Of a stretch of DNA of 64,000 nt, positions 7,174 to 62,162 are shown one piece after another; position 1 is the stretch's first letter, and every line of letters begins with the position of its first letter. Both the position numbers and the translations under genes were made by a program. The DNA is from a virus, in IMG/VR virus record IMGVR_UViG_3300042308_001511, positions 124,001 through 188,000 of that record; one strand, written 5' to 3'. Below the pieces are notes generated by a model. That model worked only from the letters and a program-made list of their open reading frames with translations, was not told the origin of the DNA and ran no database searches.

Positions 7174-7599
7174 ATGATTAAGAAATTTGAAAATTTTGAT
7201 TTTTTACCAACGAAAAGACTTTTCCTGGACGATTGGAGAATTCCTAGAGATTGTGCAACTTATATGTGGCAGAGAAAGGTTGATTGTAGAATATTCCACG
7301 AAGAGTGGGATGTCGTAAGATCATATGGTCAGTTCGTTGCTTGGATTGAAAGTAATGGTATACCTGACGTGGTTAGTTTCGATTATGATCTCGATGATGT
7401 AGAGGAATTGAAAGAGGATCTTCCGATTGAAGAGTGGTTCAACATAGAAGAAAACTATTCGTATAAAGGTACTGACTGTCTGAGATATCTAATACGTAAA
7501 TGTCGAGAAGTAGGTAGTGTATTACCAAAATGTATAATACATTCTGCCAATCCAGACGGTTGTGATGAACTTAAACAACTAATTGACGCAAACATATAA
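7174..7599 (+). CDS. Tagged cyclic-phosphate-type receiver (cREC) domain protein
   Basis: This 141-residue protein begins MIKKFENFDF, a form of the N-terminal tag shared by about 17 proteins here. The body is a compact receiver fold: RLFLDDWRIPRD (strand 1 with paired Asp), EEWDVVRSYGQFVAWI, then VVSFDYDLDD (acidic strand 3), and CIIHSANPDG (Ser/Thr-Asn-Pro loop). This pattern matches the stand-alone receiver-like domains described in phage RNA-repair and cyclic-phosphate-processing contexts. A shorter, untagged paralogue lies at 51208-51603. The tag suggests packaging in the head. The enzymatic role is inferred from family context. Confidence 0.65.
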   Translation: MIKKFENFDFLPTKRLFLDDWRIPRDCATYMWQRKVDCRIFHEEWDVVRSYGQFVAWIESNGIPDVVSFDYDLDDVEELKEDLPIEEWFNIEENYSYKGTDCLRYLIRKCREVGSVLPKCIIHSANPDGCDELKQLIDANI

Positions 7600-7606
7600 G
7601 AAAGAT

Positions 7607-7813
7607 ATGAGAAAGTTTTTGGTATTTGAGACAGAAAATGATCGTAAGAAAGTCGAGGTCACAAATTCATTTATATTTGAGTCGGAGTCGGAGATAAACC
7701 GGTTCAATAGCACCGGAGAGATATCAGATAGTGAGACAGGTCTTGCACTACTTGACAAGTTCCCGGTCTACATCGCAATGGTTAGACACATTCACATAAC
7801 CTTCGAGAAATGA
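7607..7813 (+). CDS. Small protein of unknown function
   Basis: This 68-residue product (MRKFLVFETENDRKKVEV onward) alternates strands and acidic loops, and has no recognised motif. The ATG at 7607 sits 7 bases after the previous stop behind an AAGAAAG stretch, which is a better start than the upstream in-frame ATG inside the cREC gene. It overlaps the next gene by ATGA. Confidence 0.6.
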   Translation: MRKFLVFETENDRKKVEVTNSFIFESESEINRFNSTGEISDSETGLALLDKFPVYIAMVRHIHITFEK

Positions 7814-7977
7814 AAGACTACACACCTAGAGACCTTGAATACTTCACAGAGAAGCTCTGGTCCTCTGTAGGAATACCAGAAAGATACCTCGATGGAACGA
7901 AAAACGCAGATATGTTAGAGAGAATCTTAAAAAAGAGGAAAAGGATTAGTCGTATAAAGAGTTTGTGGAAAATATAA
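7810..7977 (+). CDS. 55-residue protein resembling a portal-protein segment
   Basis: The short gene uses the ATG overlapping the previous stop. Its sequence has RDLEYFTEKLWSSVGIPERYL. The pattern D-x-x-Y-F-x-x-K-L-x-x-x-x-x-I-P-x-x-x-L recalls a conserved helix of T4-type portal proteins (gp20). The rest is a basic tail (RILKKRKRISRIKSLWKI). It may be a relic or a stand-alone peptide that binds portal partners. The likeness is from memory and covers only about 20 residues. Confidence 0.5.
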   Translation: MKDYTPRDLEYFTEKLWSSVGIPERYLDGTKNADMLERILKKRKRISRIKSLWKI

Positions 7978-8010
7978 GCAAACTTTTGATAAGTATTTCA
8001 TATATCTTTT

Positions 8011-8184
8011 ATGAGTAAATTGAAGTTGGCAACATTGTGGATTTTCATTATTGGATTTTCAACGTCTTTATTTTGTCTGATGTTATCTGATAAAAATGAT
8101 ATTGCAGGGTGGTTTTTGGCTAGTTTCTATTCATTTATATGTGTCTATTATGCCACAAAAGAACTAACAAATAATAAAAAATGA
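8011..8184 (+). CDS. Small two-helix membrane protein
   Basis: This 57-residue protein has two hydrophobic segments: TLWIFIIGFSTSLFCLML and a second around GWFLASFYSFICVYY, separated by a short polar turn SDKND. The C-terminus is KELTNNKK. A TATATCTTT box is directly upstream of the ATG, suggesting a near-leaderless transcript. The stop overlaps the next start by ATGA. Likely inserted in the host inner membrane; role unknown. Confidence 0.6.
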   Translation: MSKLKLATLWIFIIGFSTSLFCLMLSDKNDIAGWFLASFYSFICVYYATKELTNNKK

Positions 8185-8492
8185 TTAAACACGAGATAAA
8201 AGTAGAGATGAAGGATTCAGTATCCTTACGCAATCTTATAGAATCTGCATATAATATGAACGGAGAAGAAGGAACTATAATTGGTAATGAACACAGATTA
8301 TTGGTAAATCCAGTTTTGGATGATGAACTTTTTCGTGTGCTTACTGGATTACATAATAGTACAGTAAAGGTTTTCAACACAGAAGTTATTGATGGAACTA
8401 TTAGATTTATGGTTTCTGAAAAATCAGGCGAAATAAATCTTTCACCAATATCTGTACGTTGTATATGTGAAGATAGATGGATATTTTATTAA
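8181..8492 (+). CDS. Hypothetical protein
   Basis: The product has 103 residues with an alternating strand/helix pattern (HEIKVEMKDSVSLRNLIESAY, then a VNPVLDDELFRVL helix). It ends in three strands with RCICEDRWIFY. It is coupled to the small membrane protein by an ATGA overlap. No family is recognised. Confidence 0.6.
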   Translation: MIKHEIKVEMKDSVSLRNLIESAYNMNGEEGTIIGNEHRLLVNPVLDDELFRVLTGLHNSTVKVFNTEVIDGTIRFMVSEKSGEINLSPISVRCICEDRWIFY

Positions 8493-8515
8493 TAAATATA
8501 TCTAAAATGTAAGTG

Positions 8516-8677
8516 ATGATAAACGACCTGCAGGACATACTGAGGACAGTCATATACGCGCCGCCACCTAATATAGCTAGTTTTGTACATTCATTTAATG
8601 TTATACCTACACGTGTATCAGTTCGAAAGGAGAAAGCACTTCAACTTTGGTCGGATATTAAAAAATCAACTCATTGA
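8516..8677 (+). CDS. 53-residue hypothetical protein
   Basis: The gene runs from ATG 8516 to TGA 8677. The product starts MINDLQDILRTVIYAPPPN and ends QLWSDIKKSTH. Its last codons form the left arm of the terminator hairpin shared with the converging endonuclease gene. An AAATATATC box followed by ATG-TAA lies just upstream (8494-8512). Coding status is less sure than for longer genes. Confidence 0.45.
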   Translation: MINDLQDILRTVIYAPPPNIASFVHSFNVIPTRVSVRKEKALQLWSDIKKSTH

Positions 8678-8687
8678 GTTGATTTTT
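8661..8687. terminator. Bidirectional terminator between converging genes
   Basis: AAAATCAACTCA and its complement TGAGTTGATTTTT form a near-perfect hairpin with T-runs on both strands. Confidence 0.8.
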
Positions 8688-11517: not shown

Positions 11518-12501
11518 ATGGTTAAAAAAGAGATTGTTTGTGTGATGGCTCATGCAACAAATGAAGAGAAAAGGACACTTCTACGTAAGTGTGTGCAATC
11601 TATTCGTTCACACGGATACGAAGTTATGATATGTTCGCATATTAATGTTCCTGACGATTTGATTGAAATATCTGACTACTTTGTACACGGTAAGAATAAT
11701 CCTATAATAACATATGACGAGTATGAAACTATAGGTGGTGGAATATTTTATTGGCAAGACTTTCCACAATATTATATGAATAAAAAGGTAGACATAAACC
11801 ACGGGCTGGCGCACCTAAGACTTATGCTTCGTGGTGCATCAATTGCTAACATAGAAGGGTATGATGTTATACATCTCATAAACTATGATTATATAATAAA
11901 CGATGTTACGGTTTTGTCAAATGCGTCAACTAAACTTGATACAAAAGATGCATACTTTTTTAGTAGGTCCAATTCTGACACAATTATAACCGGTATGATG
12001 TCTATGCGTGTTGATAGTTTACTTAAAAACTACGGACACATATTGAGTAAGCAAGATTATTGTGTCTATGGTATATCAATATTCGAAGACCTTTTCTTAC
12101 ATATCACAAAGGAGAGTGGTATGTTATATCACATAGAAGAAAGTTCTAATTTAGATGACAGAGTTGAACAGGACCTAATCAATATAACGGATGCGTATGG
12201 TCTTTACAATTGTGAAGATACGAATATTAGGATAGTTCCGTGTATTGATGATTTTGGTCAATATTACTTATTGATATCAGTTGATCAGGAACTGGAAGAA
12301 AACTACTTGAATATATACCACCGGGGAAGGTATTATAGTGTTAGTGCATCAGGCACACAATTTATTGAACTATCTGATATGCTAGAAAATGGTATAATAG
12401 TTACTCTTAGTAAAGGCCAGGTCTGCCTAAGAATCGACTCGAAAAGCAACATATCACGATGTGTAATAAAAGACACACAAATCGTGACAAAACTTATTTG
12501 A
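11518..12501 (+). CDS. Glycosyltransferase-like protein (GT-A type)
   Basis: The 327 residues begin with a Rossmann-like start (EIVCVMAHATNEEKRTLLRKC VQSI) and a second strand EVMICSH. The segment DVIHLINYDYIINDV sits where GT-A enzymes have their DxD metal/nucleotide site, here reduced to DYD. The C-terminal 90 residues are strand-rich (GQYYLLISVD, NIYHRGRYYSV). The overall layout parallels the protein at 50132-51148, which has a clearer DxD. It may modify phage or host glycans. The assignment is by fold-level pattern only. Confidence 0.45.
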   Translation: MVKKEIVCVMAHATNEEKRTLLRKCVQSIRSHGYEVMICSHINVPDDLIEISDYFVHGKNNPIITYDEYETIGGGIFYWQDFPQYYMNKKVDINHGLAHLRLMLRGASIANIEGYDVIHLINYDYIINDVTVLSNASTKLDTKDAYFFSRSNSDTIITGMMSMRVDSLLKNYGHILSKQDYCVYGISIFEDLFLHITKESGMLYHIEESSNLDDRVEQDLINITDAYGLYNCEDTNIRIVPCIDDFGQYYLLISVDQELEENYLNIYHRGRYYSVSASGTQFIELSDMLENGIIVTLSKGQVCLRIDSKSNISRCVIKDTQIVTKLI

Positions 12502-12503
12502 CT

Positions 12504-13409
12504 ATGAAGATGAATGTACTTTCACTATTTGATGGCATATCGTGTGGTAGAATAGCACTCGAAAGAGCCGGTATACCTTGTAACTATTGGGCAAGTGAGA
12601 TTGATGAAAAGGCGATTGAAGTTTCTGCAAAAAACTGGCCAGAAATAGTTCATATGGGTGATGTCACCGAACTATACGATCAAATTGTAAACTTACCTAA
12701 GATAGATTTGCTTATTGGTGGTAGTCCTTGTCAATCATTTTCTAATGCTGGTAAAGGAGAAGGTTTCCAGGGTAAGAGTGGTTTGTTTTGGGAGTTTGTA
12801 AGGATAAAAGAAGCTACTGAACCGAGATACTTTATGCTTGAAAATGTAAGTATGAAGCGTGAGTGGAGAGACCAAATAAGTGAGGCACTTGGAGTTGAAC
12901 CAGTGATGATTGATAGTAAAATCGTGAGTGCACAGAACCGAAAACGATTATACTGGACAAATATACCATTGAAGGATACCATTGAAGATAGAGGACTCTA
13001 CTTAGATGATGTTGTTGAGTGGGATGTAGATCCAAAATACTGGTTACCTCAGAAGAATACAGATATTCTAAATAGGAAAGTAGATATGAAGGGAGCACCA
13101 GATTTATGTGCAATTGATGTATATAACAAAAGGTATAAGACGGATGGAAGGTGTCAGACAATTACACACCCATGTCATAATACAATTAGGCTTTGGCAAG
13201 ATGGTAAGTTTAGGAAGTTCACACCACTTGAATATGAGAGATTACAGAACGTTCCTGAAGGATATACCGCAGGTCATTCTGACACAATTAGAGGTGGCTT
13301 CTTGGCAAATGGATGGACAGTGGATGTTATATCATATATATTTGGTCAAATGTTGGAAGATATGAAGAAGGTTTATGAAAATCAAAAGTCATTTCAATAT
13401 CCCATTTAG
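12504..13409 (+). CDS. C5-cytosine DNA methyltransferase
   Basis: I take the ATG at 12504, just after the previous stop; MNVLSLFDG at 12510 is an alternative. Motifs in order: LFDGISCGRIAL (SAM loop), SEIDEKAIE, GGSPCQSFSNAGKG (catalytic Cys in PCQ), FMLENVSMK (ENV), SAQNRKRLYWTN (motif VIII QxRxR), a variable target region, and ANGWTVDVI (motif X with Ala where Gly is usual). It should methylate cytosine in a specific site to protect phage DNA. A second enzyme of the same family is at 22682. No partner nuclease lies beside it. Confidence 0.9.
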   Translation: MKMNVLSLFDGISCGRIALERAGIPCNYWASEIDEKAIEVSAKNWPEIVHMGDVTELYDQIVNLPKIDLLIGGSPCQSFSNAGKGEGFQGKSGLFWEFVRIKEATEPRYFMLENVSMKREWRDQISEALGVEPVMIDSKIVSAQNRKRLYWTNIPLKDTIEDRGLYLDDVVEWDVDPKYWLPQKNTDILNRKVDMKGAPDLCAIDVYNKRYKTDGRCQTITHPCHNTIRLWQDGKFRKFTPLEYERLQNVPEGYTAGHSDTIRGGFLANGWTVDVISYIFGQMLEDMKKVYENQKSFQYPI

Positions 13410-18321: not shown

Positions 18322-18867
18322 CTATTTAGTCTCTATATCGAGTTCTTCGGTTTCTTCACCATCGACCTCTATTTTTAATTTTACTAACATATCCTCATCA
18401 ACCTCATCAATCTTTACAGTTTTTTTAGGTAGTTCTTTGATAAGTTGGTCTGCAGAGTTGTATCTTTTTATCTTGACTTTACAATTCTCTATGTCTTCGC
18501 TACCGAAGTCTTTTGTAAGGTCTTTCTGAACTGCATCCTTTAAGTCTATTGTGAATATTATAGAGTACCAGTTTTCTCCGTCATCGAGTCTGCATGAAAG
18601 TGTAGATGCAATCTTAGAAATTTCTGCATCAACCAGACTTGTTCCATAATCTGCAAAGGATATCTTCTTATCTGCTGCTGCTTTCTTTTCACCTTTACTT
18701 TTTGCCTGACTGAAACTTATAATTTCGTACTCTTCTGGTTCTTCACTATCTTCTGGAAAAATCTTCATTATTTTTTCCTTTATAGTCTTAAGTGCTTGTT
18801 CGGCATGGAACTCAGGAGTCTCATCCATTCCCTCTTTTAAATACTCTGTAAATTTTATTATCTTCAT
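18322..18867 (-). CDS. Tagged protein (capsid-targeting-like N-terminus), unknown body
   Basis: The 181 residues start MKIIKFTEYLKEGMDE, a variant of the shared N-terminal tag with a possible cleavage context YLKE/G. The body has a helix (FHAEQALKTIKEKIMKIF), a Glu-rich linker and a strand-rich part with ENWYSIIFTIDLKDAV. It ends in an acidic tail EETEELDIETK. The box AATATATAA is 3 bases upstream of the ATG. Likely an internal head protein; function unknown. Confidence 0.6.
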   Translation of the reverse strand: MKIIKFTEYLKEGMDETPEFHAEQALKTIKEKIMKIFPEDSEEPEEYEIISFSQAKSKGEKKAAADKKISFADYGTSLVDAEISKIASTLSCRLDDGENWYSIIFTIDLKDAVQKDLTKDFGSEDIENCKVKIKRYNSADQLIKELPKKTVKIDEVDEDMLVKLKIEVDGEETEELDIETK

Positions 18868-19208: not shown

Positions 19209-19961
19209 TTATTTTTTGTAATATGGTTCTAAATAAATCTTTATCGCCTTGTTTATACTGGCATCCGAGGCTTCGAGATCTTCCACGTCAAGATCTTGTA
19301 AATCATTCTTTATTCTTTGTCTGACATCGCCCAAACTCATGTAAGTTAAGTTTACATTAGACTCATCTGAGAATAGTTTCAAAAACATTACGTTGTGTGA
19401 CTCTGATCCAAATGGTATATTAATGTTTTGGTCGACTATCGGATAAAGTGTTTTTAGTATGTTCAGAACTCTCTGTGTCTGCGTTGCTTCGGGTCCATTT
19501 GGGAGCTCCTGGAACGATGAAACTCTTTTCGGTAGTGAGAATGCCATCCTGATGGATATGAGTGCTTCTACGTCGTCTAATAACCTTTCCAGTTTTGTCT
19601 CTACATCTTCGTCTGATTTGAAGCTCACTGTCTTCTGATCAACCAGGTGCATATTTGCATTGTTCGCGAATGAATATTGTTTGGCGTATAGTATTACCGT
19701 GACGTAAGGTTTGAGACCGTCACCTTCGCAAAGTCTGATGATATTACACAATCTCTCTGTTACCTGTTCTACTTTTCCTTCGAGTAAACTGATGTGCTCG
19801 GACTTGTTCTCAAACGGTGTATCTGACATAATCTCAACATCAAGTCTTTCACCTTCAACATAAACGTTGGATGTGTACCCGTCAGGTAGATCATACATAA
19901 CCTCCTTTGTTGTATTCAGTATGTAGTCCATCCCACCAAAGCTCTCGAATCTCTTTATCAT
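19209..19961 (-). CDS. Tagged protein of unknown function
   Basis: The 250-residue protein begins MIKRFESFGGMDY (tag variant). The body has a strand pair (SNVYVEGERLDVEIMSD), long helices with regular hydrophobic spacing (EDVETKLERLLDDVEALISI), and an acidic segment NDLQDLDVEDLEASD. AATATATAC lies 3 bases before the ATG on this strand. Candidate internal head protein. Confidence 0.6.
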   Translation of the reverse strand: MIKRFESFGGMDYILNTTKEVMYDLPDGYTSNVYVEGERLDVEIMSDTPFENKSEHISLLEGKVEQVTERLCNIIRLCEGDGLKPYVTVILYAKQYSFANNANMHLVDQKTVSFKSDEDVETKLERLLDDVEALISIRMAFSLPKRVSSFQELPNGPEATQTQRVLNILKTLYPIVDQNINIPFGSESHNVMFLKLFSDESNVNLTYMSLGDVRQRIKNDLQDLDVEDLEASDASINKAIKIYLEPYYKK

Positions 19962-20058: not shown

Positions 20059-20760
20059 TTAGTTAGTAGAAAATTTCATAGTATTTGTAAAATAATCTTT
20101 ATTCTTACTTACCCAACCAGTTTCATTTAATTCATCTACCCATTGTTGTAGAGTAATCATTTTCATTGGATTTTTAAAAGAAACCAAATCTTCTTGTGGA
20201 ACTTCTGAAATATCTTCATCTATAATTATTTCTGAATCATCAATCGGATTCCATTTTTGTTGTGGAATAGAATACTGACTATTCTTCATAGTTAGTACAG
20301 GAACATCTTTTGTTAAATCAAATTCATAATCTGATTTCTTAACACTAGAACCAGGTTTCAAACCGATTGTGAAATTATTCACAATATCATCTTTTGCCAT
20401 AATAGATAGCCAAGAAATTGTATCCGGAACTTGTAGAGTTTTAGCTTTCTCGTCTGTTAACTCAACCAATACTTCAGAATTTTGCAAAAGCACAATTTTC
20501 GCTAACCCTGGAGTATATTGTAAGTAATCTATTGGGTTACTCATTTCTTCTTTACCTGGATTAGCACCACCAAGATAATGTATGTTATACAAATTACCCT
20601 TTGGTTGTATTGCATTTTTAGTTAAAAATTCTTGCATAACTTTACCTTTTTCGGATTTACCTTTAACTAAAGTTTCTATTTTTTTAAAAATATTTTCATT
20701 TATGCCAAGTATCCATTTCTTGTCATCTATGAATTTTTCGTACAATTTTATGTTCTTCAT
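20059..20760 (-). CDS. Tagged protein of unknown function
   Basis: The 233 residues start MKNIKLYEKFIDDKKW, a clear tag. The body contains GNLYNIHYLGGANPGKEEM, an acidic block SEIIIDEDISEVPQED, and a final helix ITLQQWVDELNETGW. There is no transmembrane segment. An AATATATAC box lies 16 bases upstream of the start. It ends at a terminator, so it forms a single-gene unit. Candidate packaged protein. Confidence 0.6.
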   Translation of the reverse strand: MKNIKLYEKFIDDKKWILGINENIFKKIETLVKGKSEKGKVMQEFLTKNAIQPKGNLYNIHYLGGANPGKEEMSNPIDYLQYTPGLAKIVLLQNSEVLVELTDEKAKTLQVPDTISWLSIMAKDDIVNNFTIGLKPGSSVKKSDYEFDLTKDVPVLTMKNSQYSIPQQKWNPIDDSEIIIDEDISEVPQEDLVSFKNPMKMITLQQWVDELNETGWVSKNKDYFTNTMKFSTN

Positions 20761-22541: not shown

Positions 22542-22682
22542 ATGGCTGATAGTATTATGATTATGGAGTTCGCAATAAGGGATTTCATCGATGGGCAAGA
22601 GTTAGTTGAGTCGTTAGAAGATAGAAAGACAGAAGTTTCTGCAAGTCTTTACGGAATTGATTTAGTTGATATATGGAACTAA
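22542..22682 (+). CDS. 46-residue hypothetical protein
   Basis: The short gene starts at ATG 22542 after an AAAAGAA stretch and ends in a TAATG overlap with the methyltransferase. The sequence MADSIMIMEFAIRDFIDG then VESLEDRKTEVSASLYG suggests two short acidic helices. It may be a small regulator; nothing specific is recognised. Confidence 0.5.
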   Translation: MADSIMIMEFAIRDFIDGQELVESLEDRKTEVSASLYGIDLVDIWN

Positions 22683-23554
22683 TGGAACAAAGTAGACCAA
22701 TCAACGTTCTTTCACTATTCGACGGAATGTCTTGTGGACAGATTGCTATTAACAAACTCGGAATAAAGTACGACAACTACTTCGCTTCTGAGATTGATAA
22801 ATGGGCTATGCAGATAACGAAGAAGAACTACCCAAACACGATCCACATTGGGGACGTAAGGGAAGTTAAGGGTACGGACCTTCCAGAAATAGATCTTCTA
22901 ATCGGCGGTAGTCCTTGTCAGTCATTTTCGAATGCAGGTAATGGAAAGGGATTTGAAGGTAAGAGTGGAATCTTCTGGGAGTATGTTAGACTACTCAAAG
23001 AAGTCAAACCGAAATACTTTATGCTTGAAAACGTAAGGATGAAAAAGGAATGGCAGGATGTCATCACCGAAGCATTAGGAGTTGAACCAATTATGATAAA
23101 TTCCAGCCTCGTGAGCGCACAGAACCGTCCTAGGTTTTACTGGACAAATATACCAGGTATAGGACAACCAGAAGATAAAGGATATGTAACACGAGACATT
23201 CTTGAAAAAGACGAGGATGTAGATACCGCATATCAACTCACAACAACAGCTCTAGCTTATATGGATAGAGAAAGAAACGGAAAGTCTAGGTGGAACTACC
23301 ACAAAAATCCATTAGACGGAAAAGCAGCTTGTGTAGTTGCAGGTTATGCCAAAATGGCAGGATTTGCAGTTTTAGATTACAGAAACTTAGGAAAACCATG
23401 TAGGAGATTAACACCGAGAGAGTGTGAGAGGTTACAAACGGTCCCTGATGACTACACAGAAGGAGTTTCAAAGACACAAAGATATTTAATGATTGGTAAC
23501 GGATGGACAGTAGACGTTATCGCTCACATACTATCATACATGAAATTAGACTAA
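22682..23554 (+). CDS. C5-cytosine DNA methyltransferase (second copy)
   Basis: I start at ATG 22682, which overlaps the previous stop (TAATG); the in-frame ATG at 22673 is inside the previous gene. Motifs: LFDGMSCGQIAI, SEIDKWAMQI, GGSPCQSFSNAGNGKG with catalytic Cys, FMLENVRMK, SAQNRPRFYWTN and GNGWTVDVI. It is closely related to the enzyme at 12504 but differs in the target region (about residues 185-245), so it probably reads another site. It protects phage DNA or mimics host modification. Confidence 0.9.
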   Translation: MEQSRPINVLSLFDGMSCGQIAINKLGIKYDNYFASEIDKWAMQITKKNYPNTIHIGDVREVKGTDLPEIDLLIGGSPCQSFSNAGNGKGFEGKSGIFWEYVRLLKEVKPKYFMLENVRMKKEWQDVITEALGVEPIMINSSLVSAQNRPRFYWTNIPGIGQPEDKGYVTRDILEKDEDVDTAYQLTTTALAYMDRERNGKSRWNYHKNPLDGKAACVVAGYAKMAGFAVLDYRNLGKPCRRLTPRECERLQTVPDDYTEGVSKTQRYLMIGNGWTVDVIAHILSYMKLD

Positions 23555-32390: not shown

Positions 32391-32399
32391 TATATATAG
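32391..32399 (+). promoter_or_regulatory. Late-type promoter box TATATATAG
   Basis: Three bases before the ATG at 32403. Confidence 0.55.
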
Positions 32400-39349: not shown

Positions 39350-40015
39350 TTATATAATATTAGGTTCATCAAACCTATTAACTCTTGATTTTATGGGAGT
39401 AGCATCAAAAAGAACTAACTCACCATCACTATTATATCCTAAATTAAAATTATGAAAGTCTAATTTAGGTAGGTCTTTTAAATTAAAGTAACAATTCCAA
39501 ATTTGAGTTACTAGTTTTTTAGAAAATGGTTTATCTAAATTATATTCTTCTTCTATACTATTAATATAATCTTCTTTTTCCAAACTACCCCAGTTGTAAA
39601 AAATTATATCAGTTGCTAAAACGGCCAATGATTCATATACTCGACCATATTTCATTTTATTAAAAAAATCATTTAATCCTTCTACTCTATCCATTATAAT
39701 CACCCAAAGCATTAAACCTTTAGCTTGATATCTAAAAACATTATAATATTTAACAACTGATATATTAACATTTTTTATTAAATCCAATGCCATTTTTGCC
39801 TCTCTTTTATCGGTTGTTACTTTTAAGACTTTATTATCAAAGGAGTAAGCATTTCCATATGAACCACTTGATAAAAATTTAACTTTATTTATATCAATAT
39901 TTAACTTTTGACAAATATCACCTAATTCAATTTTGGATAATGAAATTGATTTTGAACCATATGGGTGTTTGGGTTTCAAATATCTAAATTCTTTTAACTC
40001 CTTTAAGTATTTCAT
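39350..40015 (-). CDS. Tagged mini protein kinase
   Basis: The 221 residues start MKYLKELKEFRYLKPKH (tag). Then follows a compact kinase fold: Gly loop SSGSYGNAY (about 49-57), beta-3 Lys65 (VLK), Glu72, hinge WVIIMDRVEG, catalytic loop Asp186-x-His-x-x-Asn191, and metal Asp204 (LFDAT in place of DFG). The Asp-Asn-Asp spacing (5 and 13) is canonical, so activity is plausible. The start overlaps the 3' end of the upstream gene by 32 bases. It lies between two copies of a 23-bp direct repeat, which suggests cassette insertion. Likely injected with the DNA to phosphorylate host targets; this is inferred. Confidence 0.7.
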   Translation of the reverse strand: MKYLKELKEFRYLKPKHPYGSKSISLSKIELGDICQKLNIDINKVKFLSSGSYGNAYSFDNKVLKVTTDKREAKMALDLIKNVNISVVKYYNVFRYQAKGLMLWVIIMDRVEGLNDFFNKMKYGRVYESLAVLATDIIFYNWGSLEKEDYINSIEEEYNLDKPFSKKLVTQIWNCYFNLKDLPKLDFHNFNLGYNSDGELVLFDATPIKSRVNRFDEPNII

Positions 40016-40865
40016 ATTCTTCTTTTAGAGGTATTCTTGGATCTACATCGAACCTATCACTGATATAATCTTTTAGTTCGTTCTCAATGTAATGATCCGG
40101 AACTTCCATATCATCAGGTTCGGAATCCATTTTCACAATTATGTGTTTATTGAAATCTTCCAGAACTTCTGGTTTTATAGCATCTACGAAACCATCAGAA
40201 ACAACAAAAGCACGTGAGAACCTATCTTTTACATCGAAATCACCTTCTGGAACTTTCATATAATAGGTTACAAAAGTTTTTAGGAAATCAACATATTTAG
40301 AATCTGATTCAACGTGTTTTAGAACCGGTTTTATTATTTTATTGAACGTTCTGGAAGTACCTAATACCAATCCAATTACTGCCAACATAGGATAAAAAGG
40401 TGCCAACAAAAGTGGTATGGCTCTTGGAACTGCTTGCCAGACTGCCTTCTTTGCATCCATTGCGATTTTTGCTTCTTTTGCATCTGCGAATATTGCTCTT
40501 AACATACCGAATGTAAACTTACCACCGCTATTTACAAGATAGTCTTTTAACTTACCTCTTTTTGATAATGAAACCTGCGTAGCAATTTCGTCATCCAATA
40601 ATAGTTCGGAGACCTTTTCAGCCTTTTTGGCTTTTAGTGCCGACCAAAAACGCGTGCTCGATAGAAGATAATCAGAATACCCAAGTTCTTTCAACATAAA
40701 TTTGGCTCGGTCTTCGGTCAAATCAATCAAATTGTTAGCCACACCTAAAAGTCTTTCTTTGTTGGCTGTTTCCGATGCTACCTTTCTGAGTTCAGATTTT
40801 AGATTGTCATCCCTAAGTAGTAGACTCTCGACCACAAAATTTTCATATACTTTAAGCTTTCTCAT
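39984..40865 (-). CDS. Tagged helical protein with hydrophobic segment
   Basis: From the ATG at 40865 the product has 293 residues: MRKLKVYENFVVESLLLRD (tag, possible cut VVE/S). Long charged helices follow (SELRKVASETANKERLLGVANNL), then a hydrophobic stretch AIPLLLAPFYPMLAVIGLVLG and an acidic C-terminal half (SEPDDMEVPDHYIENEL). The longer reading upstream is rejected because a TATATATAG box sits 5 bases before this ATG. Its last codons contain the right copy of the 23-bp repeat. Perhaps an internal head protein that inserts in membrane. Confidence 0.6.
   Translation of the reverse strand: MRKLKVYENFVVESLLLRDDNLKSELRKVASETANKERLLGVANNLIDLTEDRAKFMLKELGYSDYLLSSTRFWSALKAKKAEKVSELLLDDEIATQVSLSKRGKLKDYLVNSGGKFTFGMLRAIFADAKEAKIAMDAKKAVWQAVPRAIPLLLAPFYPMLAVIGLVLGTSRTFNKIIKPVLKHVESDSKYVDFLKTFVTYYMKVPEGDFDVKDRFSRAFVVSDGFVDAIKPEVLEDFNKHIIVKMDSEPDDMEVPDHYIENELKDYISDRFDVDPRIPLKEEYEILKGVKRI
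40032..40054. repeat. 23-bp direct repeat, right copy
   Basis: Copy within the coding 3' end of the tagged helical protein; matches 39168-39190. Confidence 0.8.
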
Positions 40866-42621: not shown

Positions 42622-42882
42622 ATGAAACACTTAAATTCGTACAAAACCTTCGAGAATATGGAAAGAGATAGTATGCAAAGAGACATTTGCGACAGATGTG
42701 AGCAACCTCCTATAAATAATACTACAATAATGAGTAAGTTCAACACGCAAGTAATCTGTATGCCGTGCAAAAAAAAAGAGATGAAACACACTAAATACGA
42801 AGACGCGTGTAAAGCAGAAAAGCAAGCAAATGATAAAGGTGATTATAACTTCAAAGGGATAGGAAAGCCAGATGATTTATAA
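42622..42882 (+). CDS. Tagged zinc-ribbon protein
   Basis: The 86 residues begin MKHLNSYKTFENMERDS (tag). A CDRCEQ pair and a CMPCKKKE pair 24 residues apart form a zinc-binding ribbon. The tail is Lys-rich with EDACKAEKQANDKGDYNF. AATATATAC lies 19 bases upstream. It overlaps the next tagged gene by TAATG. Likely a small packaged DNA- or protein-binding factor. Confidence 0.65.
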   Translation: MKHLNSYKTFENMERDSMQRDICDRCEQPPINNTTIMSKFNTQVICMPCKKKEMKHTKYEDACKAEKQANDKGDYNFKGIGKPDDL

Positions 42883-43424
42883 TGAGATACATTAAGCTTT
42901 ACGAAGAGTTCGGACACGACGAGATTTACGACGTGATGATGTCCATATGCGATACTGTCTCTTTTAAAGAGTCGGATGTTTACCCTTCCACCGAAAGTAT
43001 CAGGGTCTACGAGACATCTGAACCCGTAGAGTTCGATCCTAATCAATATGAGGAATACCTGGAGGGTTGGACTATCAGACGCTTCATAATTGCTAATTGG
43101 GTTGTAATAGGCGGTAAAAATATTATTGCTTTCATAAAGGGAGACTATAAAGAGGCTAGTATATCCTGGTTGAAAGAAGTATATGGGAATCTAAAACCAA
43201 AGGAGCAAGATGGTAATATCTATTATAGAGATGGTGAAAGCGAACCTTTATTTTACTATTACAAATACAACACCGGGTACTACTACGTCAACCATAAAAG
43301 AATTTGGTCACTTTTTGAATATTTCGGTCTAAAAAAAGATGAAATAAGGAAATTGATAAGTGTTTGGCTTAGAGATATCTATAATTTAAGTGAACTCGCA
43401 CCTGATCCAAAATATTATATGTAG
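42882..43424 (+). CDS. Tagged protein, paralogue of gene at 34435
   Basis: The 180 residues start MRYIKLYEEFGHDEIYDVMM and follow the other copy closely through FIKGDYKEASISWLKEVYG. They then diverge in the Tyr-rich C-terminal part (FYYYKYNTGYYYVNHKR). The 5' 70 bases of the two genes are nearly identical, so the duplication is fairly recent. The pair brackets the topoisomerase/kinase region. Function unknown; packaged-protein candidate. Confidence 0.6.
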   Translation: MRYIKLYEEFGHDEIYDVMMSICDTVSFKESDVYPSTESIRVYETSEPVEFDPNQYEEYLEGWTIRRFIIANWVVIGGKNIIAFIKGDYKEASISWLKEVYGNLKPKEQDGNIYYRDGESEPLFYYYKYNTGYYYVNHKRIWSLFEYFGLKKDEIRKLISVWLRDIYNLSELAPDPKYYM

Positions 43425-51207: not shown

Positions 51208-51603
51208 ATGAAGAAACTTTTTCTGGATGACATTAGGTCACCAAAAGATGCAATCGGTTTAGTACCTTCACATATGAACCAGTTCTACTGGGCCAATGAC
51301 TGGGACGTAGTTCGTAGTCACGACGAGTTTGTTGATTGGATCGTAACGAATGGTGTTCCTGACTTTGTTAGTTTTGACCACGACTTAGCAGATGAGCACT
51401 ACATCGACTTTATGGGTTTGTCTGATGGTAAAGAGAAAACTGAAACAACTGAGAAAACTGGATACGAGTCTGCAAAATGGCTTGTTTACCACTGTCTCGA
51501 TAAAGGTGTCGGTTTACCCGAATACCAAGTTCACTCGGCAAATCCAGTTGGTAAAGCAAACATACAGGGTTATTTAGAGAATGCGAAAAAACATCTACTC
51601 TGA
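51208..51603 (+). CDS. Cyclic-phosphate-type receiver (cREC) domain protein
   Basis: The 131 residues start directly with KKLFLDDIRSPKDAIG. VVRSHDEFVDWIVTNG, VSFDHDLADEHYID and YQVHSANPVG follow. These are the same motifs in the same order as the tagged protein at 7174, without the tag. The Asp-pair loop and the SANP loop are conserved, so both copies share a binding or catalytic site. It stands alone under its own promoter, so it is probably made in the cell rather than packaged. Role in cyclic-phosphate or RNA-end processing is inferred from family context. Confidence 0.65.
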   Translation: MKKLFLDDIRSPKDAIGLVPSHMNQFYWANDWDVVRSHDEFVDWIVTNGVPDFVSFDHDLADEHYIDFMGLSDGKEKTETTEKTGYESAKWLVYHCLDKGVGLPEYQVHSANPVGKANIQGYLENAKKHLL

Positions 51604-56957: not shown

Positions 56958-57332
56958 CTATATAGAGACGTATGCGTCTATAAACTCTTCACCACTTTGG
57001 TATTTCACCAGAGTTCTGTTGTATCCGTCCATCACCTCTCCGTTTAGTATGACAATCGGGTTGTCTATCTCGTCGTAGTGTGGTACGTAATCCTCTTCCT
57101 CATATCTGTCCGCGTCATTCTCTACGTATTCTCTTAGGTCTGGATCACTTTCGAGAAGATCTTCTATTCTCATCTCTCTCAGTTCGAAGTCACGACCTTC
57201 TCTTTCTATCAACGTCAGGAAGTAGTCTGGGATTGTTGTCACCGGGTTGTCTGATACCTTCTTTATGTAATCGATTATCTCTTCTGAACTAAGTCTGTTC
57301 GAGCTATGTTCTAAAAATGTCATTATTCTCAT
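56958..57332 (-). CDS. Tagged ParB-like domain protein
   Basis: The 124 residues start MRIMTFLEHSSNRLSSEEI (tag with FLE/H). An acidic region EDLLESDPDLREYVENDADR follows. The final part, NPIVILNGEVMDGYNRTLVKYQSGEEFIDAYV, matches the ParB/sulfiredoxin-type nucleotide-binding motif (I-V-L-x-G-x-x-x-D-G-x-x-R). AATATATAA lies 3 bases before the ATG. It may bind CTP or ATP, or cleave DNA. The tag suggests it enters with the genome. Confidence 0.65.
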   Translation of the reverse strand: MRIMTFLEHSSNRLSSEEIIDYIKKVSDNPVTTIPDYFLTLIEREGRDFELREMRIEDLLESDPDLREYVENDADRYEEEDYVPHYDEIDNPIVILNGEVMDGYNRTLVKYQSGEEFIDAYVSI

Positions 57333-57390: not shown

Positions 57391-57891
57391 ATGAGTATTA
57401 TTATGACACACAACGCGATATTTATTGGTAAAGTAGATACTGATAACCAGAATGAGAGGTATAGTTTTTCGTGTAACCTCAGAATTGACGAGACTAACGG
57501 ACAGAGTACTGCGGTTATGATGAGGTCTTCAAATGAGGGTACTCTGAGGTTCAAAAATATAAAAGACAAAATTTCATCTCTTGGTAAATTAGAGAGGTTT
57601 GATATGGTGGTATTCACTTCTATCTGGTCGAAGACGACAGTTTGTGATGTTTATGCGATAGAGTTCGTTGACTATAAGAAAAAGGTCAGTATGAATGAGT
57701 TTAACGACCTTGGTTTAGGACCTAATATAGATGAGAGACTCGAGGTTAGGCTGAGTGGAGGTTGGACTATTGATGTCGGTAATCGTGATAAACTTGCTGG
57801 TATAGTGGTTGGTTTTGGCGAACCATTCCCATCTGAGAATGATTTGGCGGCAATCCGTCGTGAAATGAAGTTAGGTGGTCTTTTAGGTTAG
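57391..57891 (+). CDS. Hypothetical protein
   Basis: The 166 residues from ATG 57391 (MSIIMTHNAIFIGKVDTD; ATG 57403 is an alternative) form a beta-rich protein (RYSFSCNLRIDETNG, STAVMMRSSNEGTLRF). A C-terminal part has LSGGWTIDVGNRDKLAGIVV, and it ends REMKLGGLLG. It overlaps the converging gene by 9 bases. No family recognised. Confidence 0.5.
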   Translation: MSIIMTHNAIFIGKVDTDNQNERYSFSCNLRIDETNGQSTAVMMRSSNEGTLRFKNIKDKISSLGKLERFDMVVFTSIWSKTTVCDVYAIEFVDYKKKVSMNEFNDLGLGPNIDERLEVRLSGGWTIDVGNRDKLAGIVVGFGEPFPSENDLAAIRREMKLGGLLG

Positions 57892-58143
57892 TACCTTGAT
57901 TATATCATCTAAGTCTGTGTATCCTATGTTACCATCTTTGTCTCTTACCGTTATTTTTTTTTCCGCATCAATATCAATAGGTTCAATCTCATCTTTTTTG
58001 TTGTGATTTTTTAACCCTTCGATGTTACTTACAAAAATCTTATTTCCGTTTTCGATTGCCTTTTGTATATGTTCGGTAGTTATGAGGTCTCCCTCTCCGT
58101 TGTTTACAAAGGTCTCGTATTTCATTATTTTTTTATTTTTCAT
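57883..58143 (-). CDS. Small tagged protein
   Basis: The 86 residues start MKNKKIMKYETFVNNGEGD, the tag following a short basic lead as in the protein at 60497. The box AATATATAA 3 bases before the first ATG decides this start. The rest is polar: a helix TTEHIQKAIENGNKIFV, then a strand pair KITVRDKDGNIGYTDL. Packaged-protein candidate. Confidence 0.6.
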   Translation of the reverse strand: MKNKKIMKYETFVNNGEGDLITTEHIQKAIENGNKIFVSNIEGLKNHNKKDEIEPIDIDAEKKITVRDKDGNIGYTDLDDIIKVLT

Positions 58144-58146
58144 TGT

Positions 58147-58172
58147 TTATATATTAAGATTGTAATATATAG
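58147..58172. promoter_or_regulatory. Divergent pair of late-type boxes
   Basis: AATATATAA on the reverse strand (58147-58155) is 3 bases before the ATG at 58143. AATATATAG on the forward strand (58164-58172) is 3 bases before the ATG at 58176. Confidence 0.65.
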
Positions 58173-58175: not shown

Positions 58176-59504
58176 ATGAAACATTTGAGAAGATTTGACG
58201 AAGAGCTCAGCCCGGGTGTGTATAATAGAGCAGCCGAGGAAAAAGCAAAAATACACGGTGACGTGGAAGCTGCTAAGGCACTCAGGGACTGGGCCAAAAA
58301 ATCCGAGTCCGGTGGAAAGGGCTACGACATAGTGTATACTTGTGTAAGAGAGGGACGTCCTCTTTACACGGGGATTGAATACACCGCGAACATGGTGAAG
58401 CCGACGGTGGCCGGTGTATTCTTCGGATCGGTACTTGAATACCCGAAGAACAGAATTGGTGAGAACACAGCAGACTCTATACTGTCTGATTGGAAATCGA
58501 ACGGCAGGTCGCTCTCGGTCAGCATGGTCGTGAACTTCGAGAAGACCGAAGTCGTGGACAGGTCGTGGACCTACGAGGTTACAATCATCGGTAGCAAGAT
58601 TGGTGAGGCAAATGACCAGGTACAAACTTTCAAGATAGAAAAGGAACAGGAGCACTCGGCATTGATTGCACTCGGCCAGGCTATAAAGGCTGCCTACCCT
58701 AAAATCATCGGTAGTCCGCTTAGGAGCGACGCGGTGAGGTGGAAGATTGTGAAAGGACCGACGCTCGGCGTCGTAAAGGGTGGTGAGATGATGAATAAGA
58801 TAAGCGGTGTAGGTTGGCACAATAAGTTCAAAGACTATACGAGCACGCTCTCGACCTTCGTCATCGAGGTTAGGCTTTCCCGCTCGACCTATGGTATGAA
58901 CGACCAGTATGCATGCCATGCGTGTGGAGGTGCAGTCACAATGGATTGTTACGACTGTGATGGTGAGGGCTCGGTATGGAGTGATGATGCAGACGACAAT
59001 GTAACGTGTACGACCTGTAACGGAACAGGCACAATCACATGCGAGGAGTGCGACGGCGAGGATATGGTGGCAAAAGTATCTCCGTTCAAGTTTTTCGAAG
59101 ACACTTTCTATCCTGAGGTCACGATGAGACCTATACCCGGCAATCTGACCTACAACAGGGACGAGACTTATTCGCAGTACCCTTGGATTGGTATGTTCAT
59201 GGCCAGGGACGACGCGAGGAGGTTCCTGAGCGACAACTGGGAGAGGCTCATAAACGAGGATACTAGATCGAAGTTCGGTAAAAACGGAGGCGTAGGATCT
59301 TTCTACGAAGCAATAACAGACCTCGTGAAGGAGGCGGTCGACGTGAACGACAATAAGGCGATGGATTATATGCAGGAGGCGATTGTCGCGGTGGAGAACA
59401 TCAGTGTTGCAGCGATGGTACAGGACAAGGATGCCAAGTTGGCCGTGGAATCCGCCAATAGAAATTTCAGGAACATATCGACTTACAGACCGAAAAACAA
59501 ATAG
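58176..59504 (+). CDS. Tagged protein with DnaJ-type zinc-finger repeats
   Basis: The 442 residues begin MKHLRRFDEELSPGVYNRA, tag plus the helix domain shared with 33699 and 59508. A strand-rich middle follows. At about 248-295 there are four Cys pairs: CHACGG, CYDCDGEGS, CTTCNGTGT and CEECDGED, the CxxCxGxG pattern of the DnaJ cysteine-rich domain. The C-terminal 150 residues are helical (DARRFLSDNWERLI, FYEAITDLVKEAVD). It lacks a J domain. With DnaK encoded by the same phage, a link to folding or unfolding of packaged proteins is possible but unproven. G/C-rich codons. Confidence 0.7.
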   Translation: MKHLRRFDEELSPGVYNRAAEEKAKIHGDVEAAKALRDWAKKSESGGKGYDIVYTCVREGRPLYTGIEYTANMVKPTVAGVFFGSVLEYPKNRIGENTADSILSDWKSNGRSLSVSMVVNFEKTEVVDRSWTYEVTIIGSKIGEANDQVQTFKIEKEQEHSALIALGQAIKAAYPKIIGSPLRSDAVRWKIVKGPTLGVVKGGEMMNKISGVGWHNKFKDYTSTLSTFVIEVRLSRSTYGMNDQYACHACGGAVTMDCYDCDGEGSVWSDDADDNVTCTTCNGTGTITCEECDGEDMVAKVSPFKFFEDTFYPEVTMRPIPGNLTYNRDETYSQYPWIGMFMARDDARRFLSDNWERLINEDTRSKFGKNGGVGSFYEAITDLVKEAVDVNDNKAMDYMQEAIVAVENISVAAMVQDKDAKLAVESANRNFRNISTYRPKNK

Positions 59505-59507: not shown

Positions 59508-60428
59508 ATGAAATACCTAAGAAGATACAACGAAGAACTTGAACCAAGTACCTATAGAAAGGCTGCGGATAAACTAATAAAAAGGGGTAGATACCACAGA
59601 AAAAGAGGCCAGGATATGCAAGAATACGCGTCTCTTGTCGATTGGAGAAGACTAAGAGACAGATGCAAGCGTGCCGGAATACTAACGCTTAGACTCGAGA
59701 CAAGTGTGAAACCTCCAAGCGGTCAGGCAACCCCGGACTACGTTGGAGAGTTCCACCCTGTTGTCGAACTTGGACTCGATATGTTTTCGGATGAGTTGCA
59801 CGCAAGGGATTTAAATAGTGTAAACACTCCGCCGGAGAATCCAGTAAAGGGTGATAGTTATTTAGTTGGTAGAGAGCCAACTGGTGCTTGGTCTGAAAAG
59901 GCTGGTTATATGGCAGAATGGGACCGTAATCAATGGGTATTTACGTCACCACACTTTGTGATACCACTACATTGGTTCGTAAGTGCGGTTCCGACAACGG
60001 AGGAAGGCTATGAGCAAGCACACGCTGCTGCCAAGAAGAAGGTTGAGTGGCACAGAGCCAGGGGACCATACGATAAGAACTATGGGTTTCCCCTGGCCTT
60101 CTTTCACTTTGACATCATCTTCTCGGGTGGTAGCTACGAATTCGGTACGTCTCAGTTTTACTCCAGAGACGATTTGCAAGTGGATGCACACTTAGAAGAC
60201 AGGTCTGGATCAGGAAGGATCAGGTCAGAGATACTCTGGCAACTGGATGAGAAGTGTGGTGAATCATATAGTTGCCACGTTGGTGGTAAAAAACACGATT
60301 TTTCAAATCCAATCGAAGCGTTTAACGGTCTACTTCAATACTATGGTCTCTCTTCGGACTACGGACTTGAGTCAAAGGCAGTCTACGATTATGTGAAGAA
60401 GATACCAGGTAATTTTTTCACATGTTAA
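59508..60428 (+). CDS. Tagged virion protein with DUF2793-like motif
   Basis: The 306 residues start MKYLRRYNEELEPSTYRKA. The next 35 residues match the helix domain of the proteins at 58176 and 33699. Near residue 105 is NTPPENPVKGDSYLVGREPTG, then AWSEKAGYMAEWDRNQWVF. This is the DUF2793-like pattern common in phage tail or virion proteins. The C-terminal part is beta-rich. It follows 58176 by 3 bases and is closed by a terminator. Packaged or virion-attached role is inferred. Confidence 0.6.
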   Translation: MKYLRRYNEELEPSTYRKAADKLIKRGRYHRKRGQDMQEYASLVDWRRLRDRCKRAGILTLRLETSVKPPSGQATPDYVGEFHPVVELGLDMFSDELHARDLNSVNTPPENPVKGDSYLVGREPTGAWSEKAGYMAEWDRNQWVFTSPHFVIPLHWFVSAVPTTEEGYEQAHAAAKKKVEWHRARGPYDKNYGFPLAFFHFDIIFSGGSYEFGTSQFYSRDDLQVDAHLEDRSGSGRIRSEILWQLDEKCGESYSCHVGGKKHDFSNPIEAFNGLLQYYGLSSDYGLESKAVYDYVKKIPGNFFTC

Positions 60429-60429
60429 A

Positions 60430-60456
60430 ATGAGAGGCCAAATGGCCTCTTTTCTT
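60430..60456 (+). terminator. Rho-independent terminator
   Basis: AGAGGCC and GGCCTCT around an AAAT loop, followed by a T-rich run. Confidence 0.8.
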
Positions 60457-60484
60457 TTGTTGAAATTTACTACATTAGCATAAC

Positions 60485-60493
60485 GATATATAA
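60485..60493 (+). promoter_or_regulatory. Late-type promoter box GATATATAA
   Basis: Three bases before the ATG at 60497. Confidence 0.6.
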
Positions 60494-60496
60494 AAC

Positions 60497-61672
60497 ATGA
60501 AAAAGAAGATAATGAGTTATGATGTTTTCTTGGAGAATAAATCCACGGAAATGCCATTACCACAAGACGTTCTCGATATAGCTGCGGCATATACTGCAGC
60601 TGGGAAGGAGATATACGTTGTTGGTGGTGCAGTTCGAGACTTCCGAAAGGGTGTTGAACCAAAAGACTATGATTTGGTAACTAATGCACTACCGGAGGAG
60701 TCCAAACAGATACTAAAAGGTTTCTGTGTTTCTGATGAACAGGGTAAGAATTTTGGAGTACTTAGAGTATACACTGAATCGGAACCAGAAGGTTACGAGA
60801 TTGCTTCTTTTAGAAGAGATATCGCCAAAGGAAGAGACACAAAGGGTGAAGACCAAAAGGTTGATATGGGTCCTGATGTTACCATTGAAGATGACGTTAT
60901 GAGACGTGACCTTACTATGAATGCATTATTCTATGATATTGCTAAGAAAGAGATAGTCGACTTAGTTGGTGGTATGGATGATATAAGTGGTAACCAGATT
61001 AGAGCTGTTGGTGATGCATCACAGAGGTTCGTTGAGGATAGATTGAGGATAATGAGAGTGATAAGATTCGCTGCTAGAACGAATGGTATTATTGAAGAAA
61101 AAACCGCGGATGCTATTAGAAAAGATAACAGATTAAGAGACGTAGGGCCAACTGATGATGTATCTCAGGAAAGAATCTGGGAAGAGATGATGAAGGCTTG
61201 GAAACAAGCCAAAGATTATACACAATACCTTTCTTACTTCAAAGAGTTTGATATGTGGAGTCAAGTTTTTCCAGGTGTTAAAGTTTCTGATCCGGTAAAT
61301 AGTGCTGACTTTTCGGTAGTTATTGCATCTCTTCTAAGAGATAATCCTTCTGATTATCTTGATAAAAAACTCGTTCAGGATTTCAGGATTGATACATCAT
61401 TAGCAAAAAAGATTGTTTTTCTTGTTTCACTTAGAGATTTTGATGCTGAGAAGGTACTTGACTACTGGAAGAAAAGACAGTCTTCTGGTATATCTGATCA
61501 GACAATATTAGAGTGGTTAACGAAAACTGCGGTTGAACGACAAGATGTTATTAAGTTTGTGGATTGGAAACCTTCTGTAAAGTCAGAGGAACTCATAAAT
61601 AAAGGCTTCGCTGGTAAAGCATTGGGTGAGGAGATTAGAAGGTTAGAGGTAGAGAATTTCAAAGGTAAATAG
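60497..61672 (+). CDS. Tagged CCA-adding/poly(A) polymerase-family nucleotidyltransferase
   Basis: The 391 residues start MKKKIMSYDVFLENKSTEM (tag with FLE/N). The body is a class II tRNA nucleotidyltransferase: EIYVVGGAVRDFRKGVEPKDYDLVTN (G-G-x-V-R-D and the DxD pair), MRRDLTMNALFYDI, DRLRIMRVIRFAARTNG and SQERIWEEMMKAW. The C-terminal part is helical. Metal and nucleotide residues are present. It could add CCA or A to RNA ends. No tRNA gene is in the window. The tag suggests delivery into the host at infection, perhaps to repair tRNAs damaged by defence nucleases. Confidence 0.85.
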   Translation: MKKKIMSYDVFLENKSTEMPLPQDVLDIAAAYTAAGKEIYVVGGAVRDFRKGVEPKDYDLVTNALPEESKQILKGFCVSDEQGKNFGVLRVYTESEPEGYEIASFRRDIAKGRDTKGEDQKVDMGPDVTIEDDVMRRDLTMNALFYDIAKKEIVDLVGGMDDISGNQIRAVGDASQRFVEDRLRIMRVIRFAARTNGIIEEKTADAIRKDNRLRDVGPTDDVSQERIWEEMMKAWKQAKDYTQYLSYFKEFDMWSQVFPGVKVSDPVNSADFSVVIASLLRDNPSDYLDKKLVQDFRIDTSLAKKIVFLVSLRDFDAEKVLDYWKKRQSSGISDQTILEWLTKTAVERQDVIKFVDWKPSVKSEELINKGFAGKALGEEIRRLEVENFKGK

Positions 61673-61681
61673 AATATATAC
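61673..61681 (+). promoter_or_regulatory. Late-type promoter box AATATATAC
   Basis: Four bases before the ATG at 61686. Confidence 0.55.
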
Positions 61682-61685
61682 GAAC

Positions 61686-62162
61686 ATGAGTATAAAGAAA
61701 TATGATGGATTCAGAGAATCAGTTGACTACACGTTGGCTCTGATAAATGCAGAAGCTGATATTGATAAATATCAAACACCACAATTGAATACCGTTGATG
61801 ATAAATACAACGAAGAATTTGTAAAATATCTATGGGAAATTGCAGAAATAAGACGTATCGACTCGATTGGTGGTACTGAGGCAGAGCCTGGTATGAGAAG
61901 GTATTGTATCGATGGTAAGGTAGACTTTGAGGACGTGGTACATATGGCACCAACTGCTATTGCTTGTGGAATAAAGGTCTGTAAGTATCCGATGGGTTCC
62001 TATATGGAATACCAGACGTGGCCTGGTGGATACATTGAAGGTTTTATAAGAATGGATAGTGATGATCCAAGATTTGGTGAGTATATTGTTTGGACTTATA
62101 TAAAGATGGATAAACTAAGAGACATAATTGAGAAATTTGAAAATAAAATAAAACTTTTTTAA
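61686..62162 (+). CDS. Tagged protein of unknown function
   Basis: The 158 residues begin MSIKKYDGFRESVDYTLAL (tag, possible cut FRE/S). A helix NEEFVKYLWEIAEIRRID follows, then a strand-rich part with GIKVCKYPMGSYMEYQTW. It ends in a charged helix DKLRDIIEKFENKIKLF. It is coupled by TAATG to the 2H phosphoesterase gene, so the two products are made together. Confidence 0.6.
   Translation: MSIKKYDGFRESVDYTLALINAEADIDKYQTPQLNTVDDKYNEEFVKYLWEIAEIRRIDSIGGTEAEPGMRRYCIDGKVDFEDVVHMAPTAIACGIKVCKYPMGSYMEYQTWPGGYIEGFIRMDSDDPRFGEYIVWTYIKMDKLRDIIEKFENKIKLF

Follow-up and report, generated by a model that had tools for sequence, protein, structure and literature searches.

The closest described counterpart of the element reported here is the capsid-targeting sequence of phage T4, a short N-terminal peptide that is carried by the otherwise unrelated proteins IPI, IPII, IPIII and Alt and is cut by the protease gp21. 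Packaging of IPIII needs its first ten residues; residues 4 and 7 are the main determinants of targeting, and residues 8 and 10 those of processing (PMC9026906). IPII and IPIII start with MKTYQEFIAE/A and IPI with MKTFKEF (a slash marks a known or putative cut site throughout). In SPN3US and phiKZ, many head and inner-body proteins are packaged and lose propeptides to a gp21-related protease that cuts after Glu; these propeptides are mostly longer than 100 residues and share no short tag (PMC5694885). In phage P1, an N-terminal signal directs the injected defence protein DarB into the head, and the Dar N-termini have no consensus (PMC9024508). T4 packages and injects an ADP-ribosyltransferase, Alt, and the domains that phages are predicted to inject include ADP-ribosyltransferase and GNAT (PMC5512222). 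Both kinds of effector domain occur in the polyvalent proteins of phages and plasmids, which join many domains in one chain, and among the proteins described below. In this study we analysed a stretch of 64,000 nucleotides (the window), bases 124001-188000 of the 344,083-base virus record IMGVR_UViG_3300042308_001511, a linear and probably fragmentary contig, in which many proteins begin with a common peptide (the tag). We propose that the tag is very probably a capsid-targeting sequence of the T4 type, employed on a very large scale.

Like the T4 sequence, the tag is a short N-terminal peptide on otherwise unrelated proteins, with hydrophobic or aromatic residues at positions 4 and 7 and a phi-x-E/ junction shared with the capsid protein; the T4-type capsid, portal and gp21-like protease are found in relatives of the record. 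It differs in its consensus (MKYLKxF here, MKTYQEF in T4), in its cargo, and in the protease, which forms one chain with a repetitive scaffold, while in T4 gp21 and gp22 are separate. The cargo amounts to about 40-80 proteins per genome, several of them recognisable enzymes, compared with a handful in T4, in line with the suggestion of a preliminary description of the window that the T4 idea is used on a larger cargo set. In contrast to the SPN3US and phiKZ propeptides, the Glu of the first phi-x-E site lies mostly at residues 8-15, and the capsid is of the Gp23, T4-like type. Unlike the Dar N-termini, the tags have a strong consensus, and unlike polyvalent proteins, the cargo consists of one- or two-domain proteins, each with the same tag.

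Results

The preliminary description listed 17 starts in the window as sharing the peptide. All 17 are the ATG of an open reading frame of 86-442 amino acids (aa), and the literal motif given for them, M-[KR]-x-[LI]-K-x-[FY]-E-x-F, is matched by only a few. The consensus is M-[KR]-x-[LI]-[KR]-x-[FY], then a short stretch that often ends in phi-x-E/S, A or N; other forms are MKYLKRFNES, MKYLKSYKIFES and MIKTFDEFINES. A position profile was trained only on tags of the phage LR745206 and the genomes G003 and G004 and then run on the held-out record with a cut score of at least 7. It called 37 N-termini, against 0.8 in composition-preserving shuffles, and the tagged genes rise to 44 once alternative ATG starts are counted, so that the search across the record yields a larger set than first noted. 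A regular expression matched 28 of 421 N-termini (0.38 when shuffled); starting from internal Met residues, it matched 2 of 1,549. In an unbiased search for residue triplets at fixed positions, 26 genes had a hydrophobic residue at 4 and aromatic ones at 7 and 10, where 0.9 were expected.

Twelve of the 17 window starts pass the held-out profile (7174, 19961, 20760, 32403, 33699, 34435, 40015, 40865, 42622, 42882, 58176 and 59508). Three others (18867, 58143 and 60497) have degenerate tags that are backed by tagged relatives: the orthologues of 60497 start with MILKKYKMFLE/S and MKIKKYKSFLE/S, and the body of 58143 clusters with proteins starting MRYIKLFEDF and MKRIKLYEDF. The last two, 57332 and 61686, are weak as tags, although 61686 nevertheless reads YDGFRE/S. 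Chance, or a preference for Lys-rich, A/T-rich translation starts, was considered as a source of the pattern, as AAA codons after ATG are favoured in low-GC genomes. This is refuted by the composition-preserving shuffles, with less than one match, and we regard it as virtually eliminated: the distances between hydrophobic 4, aromatic 7 and Glu followed by Ser form a pattern at the protein level, and its reversed version has 0 or 1 match. Furthermore, tag patterns were not above chance in Lak-B3 or in the cultured Tenacibaculum phage PTm1, and hence no cultured carrier was identified.

Of the roughly 420 proteins of the record, 167 match the 634-kb phage LR745206.1 (LR745206) in long collinear stretches. 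The large matching records, LR745206 among them, span 462-735 kb; G005 (117,858 bases), whose DnaB is 93% identical to that of the record, is the closest relative that was found. In work from 2020, the four complete genomes of greatest length (634, 636, 642 and 735 kb) were assigned to the Mahaphage clade, the largest members of which are predicted to infect Bacteroidetes (PMC7162821). LR745206 has 81 tagged genes including alternative starts (74 called, 1.1 in shuffles), G003 has 31 (23 against 0.4) and G004 has 46 (39 against 0.5). A pattern scan of public viral contigs returned at least 117 stretches, in some of which as many as six tagged genes lie within 6 kb; in some viral contigs (L238, L254, L189 and L230), three to six tagged genes follow one another in tandem, spaced by about 0.6-1.2 kb.

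Behind the tag, the protein bodies vary widely. The 199 tagged proteins of four genomes fall into 149 body clusters; thus, the tag does not mark one gene family. The initial claim that the bodies are unrelated fails for 34435 and 42882, which are paralogues, and for 33699 and 59508, which both match one protein of a relative. A receiver domain is present in the window both with the tag (7174-7599) and without it (51208-51603). The former has 13 extra residues, MIKKFENFDFLPT, ahead of the domain, and its residues 14-138 align to the latter from residue 2, the untagged protein beginning directly at the domain. As evidence that the peptide is sufficient for packaging, this pair is only suggestive. 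The domain also begins soon after the tag in a protein of LR745206 that its sequence, without a Pfam match, marks as isochorismatase-like, in HAD phosphatase-like proteins of G003 and G004, and in GNAT and P-loop proteins of the record. The isochorismatase-like body carries a window-type tag in LR745206 (MKYIRTYESYS) and G004; its counterpart in the 735-kb phage, 32% identical (E 6e-33), starts with MKVIKFSDYLKE/S.

Gene duplication or the spread of a DNA cassette could also give rise to shared N-termini that have no targeting function, and paralogous families (34435/42882 and one of 14 members) as well as tandem tagged arrays in some relatives fit this idea. It is opposed by the number of body clusters, by the finding of orthologous bodies with different tag dialects in different phages, and by the many synonymous codon combinations that encode the tag, a free variation that points to selection on the peptide. 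We consider such an origin very improbable.

The residues known to matter in T4 are conserved in the tag. Residue 4 is L, I, V or M and residue 7 is F, Y or W in 27 of 33 tags of the record, and the stricter combination of L, I or V with F or Y is found in 74 of 81 tags in LR745206. An N-terminal phi-x-E[SAN] is present in 93 of 184 tagged proteins (26 +/- 5 when shuffled), and Ser directly follows Glu in 34% of cases in tagged N-termini compared with 7.9% in the bodies (p = 8e-17). The capsid proteins of relatives, as far as their listed N-termini are intact, have HSINE/NA in common where it is expected. Given this enrichment and HSINE/NA, the tags, taken as a set, tend to end in the putative prohead-protease site of the capsid protein. 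A small tagged protein of LR745206 (93266-93520) combines the two: it reads KFIE/NADGSSTSGMGAVSSAQPGGLAGT, the capsid protein reads SINE/NAYANASNVSGMGAVVAAQPASLAGT, and what follows FIE/N is a copy of the N-arm of the capsid protein (SGMGAV..AQP..LAGT), so that the tag and the capsid propeptide precede the same junction. Analogous small tagged proteins with an N-arm copy are found at 730457 in LR756501 and at 80294-80506 in LR756502.

The preliminary description had called for a search for a gp21-type protease and a comparison of head-protein cut sites; both a motif-matched protease and HSINE/NA were found, in relatives only. The region of LR745206 at about 186-222 kb, which holds portal, protease and capsid genes, has almost no counterpart in the record. 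Pfam Gp23 is above cut-off in G005 (E 2.6e-28) and LR745206 (1.8e-26), as is Portal_T4 in LR745206 (E 2.7e-57). Upstream of the capsid protein, the relatives, G005 included, encode a protease-scaffold fusion of about 700 aa, the N-terminal part of which aligns with T4 gp21 at NRNxRxY, GExxHP, VSSR and DxV, motif columns that are invariant among relatives. A sequence search of solved structures with the capsid and protease profiles gave no match. The middle of the fusion consists of about ten 14-residue repeats, Y-x-E-Y-[LIV]-A-E/N (for example, YSEYIAE/N), and these have the same spacing as T4 YQEFIAE/A: an aromatic residue, another at +3 and Glu at +6. From this likeness we infer that the tag may act by resembling one scaffold unit.

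A TATATA box accompanies the tag. In the record, 20 of 33 tagged genes have it in the 30 nt ahead of their start, compared with 72 of 387 untagged ones (p = 5e-7). When only the gene that opens each run is counted, the box precedes 19 of 21 tagged and 51 of 195 untagged genes in the record (p = 9e-9), 30 of 37 and 112 of 340 in LR745206 (p = 2e-8), and 18 of 24 and 77 of 246 in G003 (p = 5e-5). In LR745206, it precedes most head and tail genes examined, including the portal gene and the capsid gene (about -36 to -31), the large tail genes being taken as such from size and position, and it is rarer before replication genes. By analogy with T4, TATATA is probably a late promoter. Across the genome, TATATA peaks exactly 4-5 nt before ATG, with a second peak near 20 nt; if it acts as a late promoter of the -10 kind, many of the late mRNAs would lack a leader.

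A late-type promoter and a modular N-terminal peptide would suit any late sorting signal, and the tag could then address proteins to some other late structure, such as the tail, a membrane-bound assembly site or a phage compartment. We judge this to be improbable, as the cut junction is common to the major capsid protein and the scaffold, both of which are head-specific, residues 4 and 7 match the head-targeting residues of T4, and the head proteins are T4-type.

The 735-kb phage LR756501.1 (LR756501) has few window-type tags and uses a dialect of its own. An unbiased search returned hydrophobic 2 with aromatic 5 and 8 in 61 genes against 2.1, and the T4-type pattern is present in 52 genes against 5.6 in shuffles, for example MIKTFDEFINE/S, MVKNFDKFVRE/A and MLKNYWTYIKE/S. 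Its protease-scaffold has the same YxEY[LIV]AE repeats as those of the relatives. T4 itself gives a handful of pattern matches only, IPII and IPIII among them.

Part of the cargo belongs to protein types for which packaging and injection are known or predicted. Of the body names first assigned in the window, Pfam backs the receiver, glutamine amidotransferase and CCA-adding/poly-A polymerase head domains; the kinase and the ParB-like protein were not recovered, and the DnaJ zinc finger at 58176 is matched below cut-off. Elsewhere in the record, one tagged protein combines a HAD repair-phosphatase with weak AAA_33/zeta-like kinase matches, and another is a GNAT protein. Weak matches below cut-off in the cargo of relatives include a polyvalent-type ADP-ribosyltransferase, a 2H phosphoesterase (weakly similar to Acb1) fused to an exonuclease, and NFACT-R. 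A PHROGs search with ten large proteins of the record, several of them tagged, gave almost no known family. Four kinds of tagged cargo resemble RNA-repair proteins: the cyclic-phosphate receiver, the CCA-adding enzyme, the kinase with HAD phosphatase and the 2H phosphoesterase. They suggest a pre-loaded tRNA repair against anticodon nucleases.

We consider it likely that the cargo is injected at infection. Another possibility, which we regard as unlikely, is that the tagged proteins, once packaged and processed, act in the virion or in head assembly, as scaffold filler or in DNA condensation, and do not serve as injected effectors. Small size and lack of a known family are common among the tagged proteins, and the role of T4 IPIII may be morphogenetic (PMC9026906). 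On the other hand, an assembly use is not evident for enzymes or enzyme-like bodies such as the ADP-ribosyltransferase, GNAT, CCA-adding enzyme, kinase-phosphatase and 2H phosphoesterase with exonuclease.

Discussion

The capsid-targeting idea put forward in the preliminary description is supported by five independent lines that can be read from the sequence: the tag with its residues 4 and 7, its modular attachment, the shared phi-x-E junction, the gp21 motifs in relatives and the link to a late-type promoter. Several points weigh against it. Pfam S77 and Gp23 searches of the record returned no protease and, for Gp23, only a 36-position sub-threshold match; as the record is a fragment without the head module, the links to protease and capsid rest on relatives. 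The protease of these relatives scores 17.9-20.1 bits with Pfam S77, below the gathering score of 27, and is thus called gp21-like by its motifs and not by Pfam; an AlphaFold model of its domain was poor (predicted local distance difference test score, 42.5) and was not used for a fold search. A clear cut site is present in about half of the tags, and the other half, which have no obvious one, may be processed at a site that is harder to recognise or may stay uncut. The excess of TATATA before tagged first genes is not significant in G004 (p = 0.07) or in the small G005. Finally, the body clusters are single-linkage and include some paralogues.

We propose the following mechanism. A tagged protein would be made from a late promoter during late infection, and its N-terminal amphipathic stretch, with hydrophobic residue 4 and aromatic residue 7, would dock on the scaffold core while the prohead grows, perhaps as a mimic of the YSEYIAE repeat of the scaffold itself. 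Once the shell closes, the gp21-type protease, fused to the scaffold, would cleave capsid protein, scaffold and cargo alike behind the Glu of phi-x-E. The cut cargo would stay in the head with the DNA and would probably be injected at the next infection. Docking, cutting and packaging are what we infer, and injection is a longer step.

A broader proposal, which we hold to be evenly poised, concerns the largest phages (Mahaphage relatives of 340-735 kb). In these, a scaffold-mimicking tag would be a general address label, with its own dialect in each lineage, that defines from sequence a packaged and injected set of about 40-80 proteins. Part of this set would be a kit for RNA repair and counter-defence, loaded in advance and acting before phage gene expression (CCA-adding enzyme, kinase-phosphatase, cyclic-phosphate receiver and 2H phosphoesterase). 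As far as the literature shows, the kind of signal is known, and its scale, dialects, enzyme-containing cargo and scaffold-like repeat are new; no description of such a tag on these huge phages was found in the open-access literature.

What huge phages deliver in the first seconds of infection is largely obscure, as almost none has been cultured. A packaging label that can be read from sequence would provide dozens of candidate injected proteins per genome, mostly without a known family, from phages known only from metagenomes. It would also tie the handful of internal proteins of T4 to a general strategy, and it offers many natural tag variants for packaging studies.

Feature positions

Table 1. 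Tagged proteins, promoter boxes and related features. Positions are in the window unless another sequence is named; scores are those of the held-out profile.
Feature	Position	Strand	Remarks
TATATA, late-type promoter box	7164-7169	+	4 nt 5' of ATG at 7174; box enriched before tagged genes
Tagged cyclic-phosphate receiver protein, MIKKFENFDF	7174-7599	+	tag, residues 1-13; cREC_REC E 2.9e-16, residues 15-138; score 14.5
Tagged protein, MKIIKFTEYLKE/G, degenerate tag	18322-18867	-	LR745206 orthologue starts MKIRKYIEFITE/D
Tagged protein, MIKRFE/SFGG	19209-19961	-	score 13.7
Tagged protein, MKNIKLYEKF	20059-20760	-	score 14.0
TATATA box	32393-32398		
Tagged glutamine-amidotransferase-domain protein, MKYLKRFLE/TS	32403-33683	+	GATase E 7e-9; score 13.0; tagged LR745206 relative MKHIKRFLE/H
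Tagged protein, MRYLKHFERL	33699-34433	+	score 7.2
Tagged protein, MRYIKLYEEF	34435-35025	+	paralogue of 42882-43424; score 22.8; four paralogous matches in record
Tagged protein, MKYLKELKEF	39350-40015	-	score 13.5
Tagged protein, MRKLKVYENFVVE/S	39984-40865	-	score 11.8
Tagged small protein, MKHLNSYKTFE/N	42622-42882	+	Cys pairs; score 18.8
Tagged protein, MRYIKLYEEF	42882-43424	+	paralogue of 34435-35025, 82% identity over first 61 aa; score 21.7
Untagged paralogue of the 7174 receiver-domain protein	51208-51603	+	natural control; cREC_REC E 6.5e-21 from residue 3; 36% identity to 7174-7599
Weak candidate tag, MRIMTFLE/HS	56958-57332	-	missed by profile; TATATA box upstream
Tagged protein, MKNKKIMKYETFVN, degenerate tag	57883-58143	-	body clusters with tagged MRYIKLFEDFKQNN (G004) and MKRIKLYEDFKVNN (G003)
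TATATA box	58166-58171	+	4 nt 5' of ATG at 58176
Tagged protein, MKHLRRFDE/E	58176-59504	+	score 20.0; DnaJ_CXXCXGXG E 0.0097, below cut-off
Tagged protein, MKYLRRYNE/E	59508-60428	+	score 21.3; in 14-member tagged body family, four genomes
TATATA box	60487-60492		
Tagged CCA-adding/poly-A polymerase-like protein, MKKKIMSYDVFLE/N	60497-61672	+	PolyA_pol E 3.2e-28 from residue 39; orthologues tagged FLE/S
Weak candidate tag, MSIKKYDGFRE/S	61686-62162	+	matches T4-type pattern only
RNA-repair-like cargo	window 7174, 60497; record 260756-261988; L030:48257-49573		
Protease-scaffold fusion, repeats YSEYIAENLDKNIA	LR745206 198546-200669; relatives L036-L115		repeat number varies among relatives

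Apart from the tagged genes, the record encodes three similar NVLSLFDG(M/I)SCG proteins, two in the window (12459-13409 and 22673-23554) and one at 82203-83105 of the record, which look like cytosine-C5 DNA methyltransferases.

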